From Odontesthes bonariensis (taxonomy: Eukaryota > Chordata > Actinopteri > Atheriniformes > Atherinopsidae), in NCBI RefSeq assembly GCF_027942865.1, contig NC_134510.1, positions 24,545,209 through 24,609,208 of the forward strand: a DNA stretch of 64,000 nt, in the 5' to 3' direction. Each line of letters starts with the position of its first letter. The first letter of the stretch is position 1. Shown here piece after piece: positions 47,483 to 51,976 of the stretch. Under the pieces are notes generated by a model that saw only the letters and a program-made list of their open reading frames with translations, made no database searches and was not told the DNA's origin. The position numbers and the translations under genes are program-made.

Positions 47483-49404
47483 ATGTCAGCCGTAAGTAGT
47501 CTCGTCCCTGCACGGTTTCTCACCATCACAGCTCACCTTGTCATCGTCATCACCATATTTTGGTCGAGGGTAAGTAAACGCAAAAGGGAAAAGAAAACAA
47601 AGTTGCGAAACTGTTAGGTATTTGAGTTCCTGTGTGTTTTGTAGCATGTTGTCAGTTTATGAGATGCAGAAGAAGCTCTCCGATCTCCCATTTCCGTAGT
47701 TAAACCACACGCTGAAAATATCCTTCTAAAAATCAAGCCAGGATACACAAAATTTTGTTCTGTTATTTCAGTAACTTATATTGCTTTATATACTGCTGGG
47801 TAATTTTAAGTTTCAACAATGCAGCATGTTCCATATGATCATCGTGTGTATGTGGTTGTGCTTATCCGCTCAGGACCACATATCTTTAAAAAGTCAGATT
47901 TTAATGATCTTAGCAACAGCCCTGTTTTTCAGTCGTGTAACAACATGTGTCCCAGCTTGAATCCAAAAATATGATCCTAAGGCTGTAAGGCAAACGCAGC
48001 ACTAAAAAGTGGAATGTTTGCCCTTAAGATGCAGTTTATCAGAAGTTTAAAGATGCTCGATAGAAAATATCAAGTAAAATTCAAAAGTTAACCTTGTGCT
48101 TAAGTGGGGTCTTTGAATGAATGTGTTTAGCTAAATTCCAACACAGCATACTAACCGCTACTGTTAAATTATGTCCTGAAAAGTTGTCATGTGACTTTGT
48201 CTTAAAGGAAAATAACGTGAAGGCGAGTTTACCTTTGGTTTTCACGCAGGAGCAGTTTGACACTGAAGACAGAAAGTAAGTAAATGTTTGATGAACACAT
48301 CTGACGCACAGTTGCATACACACGCCCTCTAAGAAGTGTCCCTTCTTTCAGGTTGGTGGTGGCATTGGCAGTCACCCTCGGTCTGTTTGCTATAGAGCTG
48401 GCTGGTTTCTTTTCAGGAGTGTCCATGTTCAACTGCAGCCAGGGTCTCCTGTGTATCCTTTCCACTGACAGTGTGGGTCCATCATTGATGATAACCATAG
48501 ACATTCATAAGAGTCATGCTGAACAGTCAGTATATTTTTGGCTAGAGGTGTGTCCAGTTGATTCCGGTTTCTAATTGGTATTTGAACATGTTGCGTAACT
48601 ACATCATCTGTGGTTTCGTTTCACCTGGATACATTTGTTTCTTTGTGAAGCCTTAGTTTCCTTTCTAAGGAAGCTGCTCACTTCCATGCAAATGCAAACA
48701 TGGGAGGTGAAGATCGAGGCTGGGCTCCAACTGATGACGGTCGAGAAATCACTATCAAATGAAACATCTCTTTAGAATCAAACTGTAAAAACAAATTGAA
48801 ATGTGAGCGATATTAAAAAGTCACCGTGGGCATCAGTTACAGTTCCATGACGACAAACTCCCATTTATTTGATGCTTCTCCTACAATAGCAACAGGAGTC
48901 CATGCCAGTGCCTCTGTGGCTCTGCTTTTCTTTCTCTTTGAGCAGTGGGAGTGTGACATCTACTGGGGGATCCTTGCCATTTGCAGGTTAGTGTATACAT
49001 GCGTGATAATCTGTGTGTTAGGGTGTACTTTGCGGAAGTTGTTTTTTTTCCCTAACAGATGTTTTCCCCAGCATTGGCTGTCCACTGCAGCGCATCTGTG
49101 TCCTTGTCTTTCTTTGTGTTTGAGAAGTGGGAATGTTGGACTTACTGGGTGATATTTGCCACCTGCAGGTTGGTGTGTCTGTGTTTTACTTTCTGATGAA
49201 TTATTAGTTTTCAGGGAGTTATGCGGTAGAAGCTTGTGACGATGAGGATGAGTGAGTAGGAACGCTTTTAGGTACCATGGCTCCGCCCCAGTGGTTATCC
49301 CTACATTTTTCTCTCTGTCTGTCTCTCTCCCCAGTGTCCTGCCTGCCTTTGTGGAGGTTCTTCTGTTTATAGCGGTTTTTGGACTGAAGAAGAAGCCACT
49401 ATAA
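47483..49404 (+). CDS. tmem107: TMEM107, ciliary transition-zone membrane protein
   Basis: Coding exons 47483-47569, 48208-48275, 48352-48452, then either 48890-48986 (4a) or 49072-49168 (4b), and 49335-49404. Using one exon 4, the product is 140 residues, the same as human TMEM107. It has four predicted membrane segments: LVPARFLTITAHLVIVITIF at the N-terminus; LVVALAVTLGLFAIELAGFF; the exon-4 segment; and LPAFVEVLLFIAVFGLKKKP at the end. TMEM107 belongs to the MKS module of the transition zone and is needed for ciliary protein sorting and Hedgehog signalling. An AATAAA at 49637-49642 marks the likely 3' end. A second tmem107 paralogue elsewhere in the fish genome is possible, so the symbol could be a tmem107-like form. 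Confidence 0.93.
48890..48986 (+). other. tmem107: tmem107 alternative exon 4a
   Basis: A 97-bp exon with acceptor TACAATAG and donor AG|GTTAGTG, entering in phase 1 and leaving in phase 2. It encodes STGVHASASVALLFF, then LFEQWECDIYWG and ILAICS. It shares 21 of 33 residues (hand count) with exon 4b but has Ala where human TMEM107 and 4b have Cys (HCSAS). Confidence 0.85.
49072..49168 (+). other. tmem107: tmem107 alternative exon 4b
   Basis: A second 97-bp exon, starting 85 bp after 4a ends, with a stronger pyrimidine tract (TTTTCCCCAG) and donor AG|GTTGGTG. It has the same phases as 4a. It encodes SLAVHCSASVSLSFF, then VFEKWECWTYWV and IFATCS, and is closer to the human segment than 4a is. 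Confidence 0.85.

Positions 49405-50322: not shown

Positions 50323-51976
<1,654 letters not shown>

Follow-up and report, generated by a model that had tools for sequence, protein, structure and literature searches.

The window (the whole 64-kb stretch of DNA analysed here, from a source genome of 945 Mb in 187 contigs) carries on its + strand tmem107, a ciliary gene probably of a fish, in which exon 4 is present in two versions, 4a and 4b (Table 1). By in silico splicing, use of either version alone gives a protein of 140 aa, and the 4a and 4b isoforms match the TMEM107 family profile (PF14995; gathering cut-off, 26 bits) with 159.8 and 161.0 bits, respectively. Hydropathy places the third transmembrane segment (TM3), a turn and the beginning of TM4 in exon 4.

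Table 1. Features of the tmem107 locus (window coordinates)
Feature	Position	Strand	Remarks
Coding exon 1	47483..47569	+	ATG to AGG/gtaagt; in silico splicing
Exon 2	48208..48275	+	In silico splicing
Exon 3	48352..48452	+	Last base is the first of a split codon; PF14995 match
Intron 3 5' splice site, apparently U12-type, GTATCCTTT	48453..48461	+	9/9 to RTATCCTTT
Best candidate U12 branch point of 4a, TTATTTGAT	48865..48873	+	A at -18; weak
Exon 4a (97 bp)	48890..48986	+	STGVHASAS version; TM3, turn, TM4 start
Putative U12-type branch point of 4b, TTCCCTAAC	49048..49056	+	A at 49055, -17; TTCCYTRAC
Exon 4b (97 bp)	49072..49168	+	SLAVHCSAS version
Double-inclusion TGA	49121..49123	+	Reached only with 4a + 4b; genomic place by hand
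Exon 5, last coding	49335..49404	+	Ends in TAA; U2-like acceptor, rich in pyrimidines

Gene structure and genomic surroundings

A preceding sequence-only reading of this DNA had described the pair as two 97-bp exons, 85 bp apart, with AG acceptors, GT donors and identical phases (1 in, 2 out), either of which yields a 140-residue protein, and had predicted that inclusion of both shifts the frame into a TGA within 4b. All of this was reproduced, the product with both exons being 134 aa long with an altered C-terminal end. Omission of both leaves 97 aa, with a stop in the last exon. The decay that the same reading expected for the mRNA containing both exons is doubtful. Nonsense-mediated decay (NMD) usually needs a stop more than 50–55 nt upstream of the last junction; since 45 nt separate the end of the double-inclusion stop from the last (4b-5) junction, which is inside this limit, NMD can hardly be relied on as a safeguard.

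In a whole-genome search with the TMEM107 profile, 27 candidates were scored and 3 matched at E <= 0.001, namely exons 3, 4a and 4b of this locus; neither a second tmem107 locus nor a further exon 4 was found in this search, which can miss short or diverged exons, as exons 1, 2 and 5 of tmem107 itself went undetected. The DNA of the region matched nothing but itself in the source genome. A paralogue as the origin of 4a found no support, the three genome profile matches at E <= 0.001 all lying at the tmem107 locus. Searches of a genome-contig and a viral-contig collection, neither of them from fish, returned 63 and 4 pattern stretches, respectively, none of which was confirmed as a relative, and there were no matches among solved-structure chains at E up to 1. 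Human TMEM107 is overlapped by SNORD118; over the window, no structured-RNA match was obtained at Rfam gathering scores.

The gene is located between a TRIM-like gene and krtcap2. Between 12343 and 51400 the window holds together one exon each of an ephrin and of a SWEET-type sugar transporter, stretches of B-box, fn3 and SPRY on the - strand (SPRY at 22.4 bits does not reach its cut-off of 26.3) and krtcap2. This grouping resembles the human EFNA-SLC50A1-KRTCAP2-TRIM46 cluster. Human TMEM107 is on a different chromosome from that cluster.

Homology and coding constraint of exons 4a and 4b

The two adjacent exons are homologous and of the same length and phase; one intact protein results from each singly and none from both together. 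They share 21 of 33 residues (19 of the 31 full codons plus 2 split-codon serines), in agreement with the earlier hand count, and their local alignment score of 43 was equalled by none of 500 shuffles. The 12 differing residues include Ala/Cys 91, Asp/Trp 108 and Gly/Val 112 (4a/4b), and Phe99, Phe100 and Phe102 are common to both versions. Each exon also matches PF14995 on its own (35.0 bits for 4a, 35.4 bits for 4b; cut-off 26). The flanking introns, compared over 85 nt upstream and downstream, show no homology above shuffles (0.994 and 0.264 of 500), and therefore either the duplication is old or the exon alone has been retained.

At the nucleotide level, 29 of the 93 compared bases differ, with no change of length in 97 bp. 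There are about 12 synonymous differences over 20.4 sites and 17 non-synonymous differences over 72.6 sites, giving dS 1.17, dN 0.28 and a dN/dS ratio close to 0.24; Fisher's test on the rounded counts gave p 0.0028. When equal numbers of changes were placed at random on either exon (50,000 trials each), an identity as high as that observed arose in 0.15–0.3% of trials, and a stop in 62–71%. In a stricter simulation, 4b was kept constrained and 4a was left neutral since the duplication, and accepted runs were counted under 6 settings: a non-synonymous count as low as or lower than that observed, with no stop, occurred in 1.4–4.2% of accepted runs, or in 2.8–8.4% when stops were ignored. With 4a constrained as well (omega 0.5 to 0.1, 24 settings), the figure was 19–98%. 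Depending on the test, the P values for constraint span 0.0015–0.08, on only 31 full codons.

Drifted versions of 4b served as controls for the profile score. After 15 changes, 8 of 10 still matched PF14995 (best 26.9 bits), and after 29 changes 2 of 10 did (best 15.8 bits), so that half of the 20 matched but none exceeded 26.9 bits, versus 35.0 bits for 4a. Since the score of 4a is at full strength and those of the drifted controls are lower, 4a appears to have been long retained as coding sequence. We consider that, through most of its history, 4a was probably retained as an exon of TMEM107, a reading based on 31 codons and one that would accommodate a recent loss. Taken together, the comparisons support a tandem duplication of exon 4 that left two apparently constrained, interchangeable coding versions. 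To this extent the sequence-only interpretation stands, and it is the frameshift/NMD mechanism attached to it that is weak.

Splice-site classes around exon 4

The consensus of the U12 5' splice site is RTATCCTTT and that of the U12 branch point is TTCCTTRAC. The donor of exon 3, TGT/GTATCCTTT, matches the U12 consensus at all 9 positions. As a U2 site it is poor, with a matrix score of -2.6, the 30th percentile of the GTs on the + strand of the window. The donors of 4a (CAG/GTTAGT) and 4b (CAG/GTTGGT) are U2-type, at the 99th and 96th percentiles of window GTs, respectively, each with 3 of 9 matches to the U12 consensus. Position -1 of exon 3 is T; G is disfavoured at this position in U12-type GU-AG introns, and among 7 misclassified introns from a table of the same paper (PMC10853781) 5 have AG before the donor. 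Intron 3 thus looks to be of the U12 (minor) type, a feature absent from the sequence-only reading. A passage of PMC13216214 places human TMEM107 among the minor-intron-containing genes, the intron itself not being named, and so speaks for a minor intron of old standing in the gene. A U2-type donor for exon 3 was ruled out on the score given above, and hand inspection found no nearby U2 donor that would keep the phase for 4a.

RTATCCTTT occurs twice in the 64 kb on both strands, versus 1.24 copies expected, which is no more than shuffles predict. Both copies lie exactly at exon ends, one at exon 3 of tmem107 and the other in the neighbouring krtcap2. The latter gene has an apparent U12-type intron (51111-51321; next exon start 51322), with the donor ACT/GTATCCTTT after 51110 and the U12-like branch point CACCTTAAT 11 nt upstream of the acceptor. 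Pfam Keratin_assoc extends across this junction with 99.3 bits, and the intron serves as an internal control.

Upstream of 4b, TTCCCTAAC agrees with the branch-point consensus at 8 of 9 positions, as expected of a U12-type branch point. The pattern TTCCYTRAC, drawn up after this site had been seen and matching it at one change from TTCCTTRAC, has a single copy when both strands of the 64 kb are counted, against 2.82 expected, and this is the site 17 nt upstream of 4b. Neither its count nor that of RTATCCTTT is remarkable, and only their places are informative. On an approximate U12 matrix, a branch point as good as that of 4b precedes 0.26% of the 4210 AGs on the + strand of the window. Its distance of 17 nt is longer than the optimum of 11–13 nt given in the available excerpts of PMC3584512. 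For 4a no U12 branch point above chance was found, the best candidate, TTATTTGAT, being equalled or beaten at 17.5% of these 4210 AGs on the approximate matrix.

The intron between 4a and 4b appears to pair the U2-type donor of 4a with a branch point of U12 type, yet the 4b acceptor has U2-like features too, among them a CTAAC that is a candidate U2 branch point. A distinct polypyrimidine tract before the acceptor is not expected of a U12-type intron. Pyrimidines occupy 7, 6 and 8 of the 8 positions from -12 to -5 for 4b, 4a and exon 5, respectively, and 10, 11 and 14 of the 16 positions from -20 to -5. The 4b acceptor might therefore take U2 splicing, and an incompatibility of the two classes would then be leaky or weaker. 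Since the acceptor of 4a is without an above-chance U12 branch point, this exon may seldom be spliced in or may be on its way to loss; judged from these sites, it is probably the weaker partner if it is used, and its use may be declining.

The stretch 48830-48914 contains six AGs. One is the acceptor of the exon start at 48890, two others keep the frame and three are off frame. Three in-frame acceptors of 4a are thus close together in 48888-48899. The competing one 6 nt downstream (exon start 48896) would create a TGA across the junction with exon 3, a possible off state, and the one with exon start 48899 would leave an open frame and an exon shorter by 3 codons.

Proposed mutually exclusive splicing and its relation to known systems

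In the mechanism that we propose, an ancestral exon 4 would have lain between a U12-type intron upstream and a U2-type intron downstream, and its tandem duplication would have produced two copies that both still code. The minor spliceosome would join the U12 donor of exon 3 to the acceptor of either 4a or 4b, and the major spliceosome would join whichever exon is chosen, through its U2 donor, to exon 5. Joining of 4a to 4b would be disfavoured, as the 85-bp intron carries a donor of one class and a branch point of the other, and mutual exclusion would be inherent in the splice-site classes. With its strong U12 branch point, 4b is the predicted default, and 4a, with a weak one, is predicted to be a minor or tissue-restricted choice. 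Two TMEM107 proteins of 140 residues would result, with differences at 12 of the 33 positions that cover TM3, the turn and the beginning of TM4. The U2 and U12 classes are generally incompatible, as stated in the available part of PMC3584512; since 4a-4b joining would mix them, spliceosome incompatibility, by analogy with MAPK8/9, appears to be the likeliest enforcer. Mutually exclusive use of the two exons is plausible on these features, and that it is enforced by splice-site class, in a pair duplicated beside a minor intron, we regard as an evenly balanced proposition, though the most likely of the readings considered. The exons, their frames, the coding constraint, the U12-type donor and the U12-like branch point of 4b are read from the sequence itself; actual use of 4a, incompatibility of the two classes in vivo and any difference between the two proteins in function are inferred.

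The main rival to class-enforced exclusion is that 4a is dead or dying: long used and still intact in its code, it would have lost its U12 branch point to decay in this lineage, with 4b alone being spliced. The exon 3 donor, U12-type and poor as U2, together with a 4a acceptor that lacks an above-chance U12 branch point, accords with such a loss, as does the strong branch point belonging to 4b. Against it stand the frame, the donor and the profile score of 4a, all intact, and a dN/dS well below 1; an exon neutral since the duplication fits poorly with the simulations, and a recent loss is the form in which this explanation, somewhat unlikely in our view, would best survive. Another reading, in which splicing to 4a is an error product only and its apparent constraint an accident of short sequence, could draw on the small number of codons and the spread of the P values. 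It is very improbable, given the profile score of 4a above all 20 drifted controls, the 97 bp kept without a change of length and the intact donor and acceptor dinucleotides.

Exclusion might instead come from ordinary regulation (splicing factors, the short intron, the loss of frame) rather than spliceosome class, with the 4b acceptor serving both spliceosomes. The intron of 85 bp, the CTAAC and the run of 7 pyrimidines in 8 at the 4b acceptor, and the frame lost on double inclusion are all in keeping with this. However, the distance from the 4a donor to the 4b branch point is 68 nt, and since this exceeds the 50 nt that Hatje et al. took as the steric limit (available text of PMC5740500), steric exclusion is less likely; the double-inclusion stop is too close to the last junction for reliable NMD, and the exon 3 donor is a full U12 match. 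We consider exclusion by ordinary regulation unlikely.

If class-enforced exclusion is true, i) tmem107 would be a natural case of exclusive splicing set by the class of the splice sites, in which the minor intron lies upstream, in the opposite order to MAPK8/9 and TMEM87 as these are described in the excerpts cited below, ii) two natural versions of TM3 of TMEM107 would be available for comparison, and iii) the link between the minor spliceosome and ciliary disease would be easy to read from the 4a/4b ratio. The human deletion p.Phe106del, which affects exon 4 and thereby the third transmembrane domain of TMEM107, is reported in orofaciodigital and Joubert-type disease in the available text of PMC8971417, and minor-spliceosome defects are tied to ciliary disease in that of PMC13216214. 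Tentatively, and with more doubt than conviction, we suggest that minor-spliceosome activity might set the 4a/4b ratio, and hence the TM3 composition of TMEM107, through competition for one minor donor, a helix-swap switch in a ciliary-gate protein; more generally, any exon flanked by a minor and a major intron might become a ready-made exclusive pair on duplication, at first free of any regulator.

Exclusion by splice-site class is itself already known; the tmem107 case is new as far as the open-licence PMC matches listed show, no description of the 4a/4b pair having been found in their titles and abstract beginnings. Among the closest likenesses are exons 6a/6b of MAPK8 and MAPK9 (JNK), where, in the parts available of PMC8329584 and PMC3584512, U2 and U12 sites are interlocked in the way proposed here and joining of the pair would mix classes. 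In MAPK8/9, however, an upstream U2 intron is followed by a U12 intron downstream, whereas in tmem107 the U12 intron would be upstream and its single donor would be contested by two acceptors; the JNK isoforms, moreover, are reported in RNA, whereas the tmem107 switch is predicted here from the genomic sequence. Exons 11/11a of TMEM87A and TMEM87B likewise form an exclusive pair at a minor intron, with tissue-specific use according to excerpts of PMC6717393 and PMC8329584, again with U2 upstream and U12 downstream, the reverse of the tmem107 order. Apart from this order, what is described for MAPK8/9 and TMEM87A/B is the mechanism proposed for tmem107. Incompatibility of U2 and U12 acceptors, as suggested here, was also proposed by Hatje et al. 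in 2017 for 5 of 629 human clusters; TMEM107 does not occur in the main text of that paper (PMC5740500), and their five cases may include one with the U12 intron upstream. Exons 4a/4b of OGDH, in the available text of PMC7969005, resemble those of tmem107 as a mutually exclusive coding pair, but exclusion in OGDH is enforced by distant branch points, close to the donor of the intron between the two exons, whereas in tmem107 68 nt separate the candidate from the donor and 17 nt from the acceptor.
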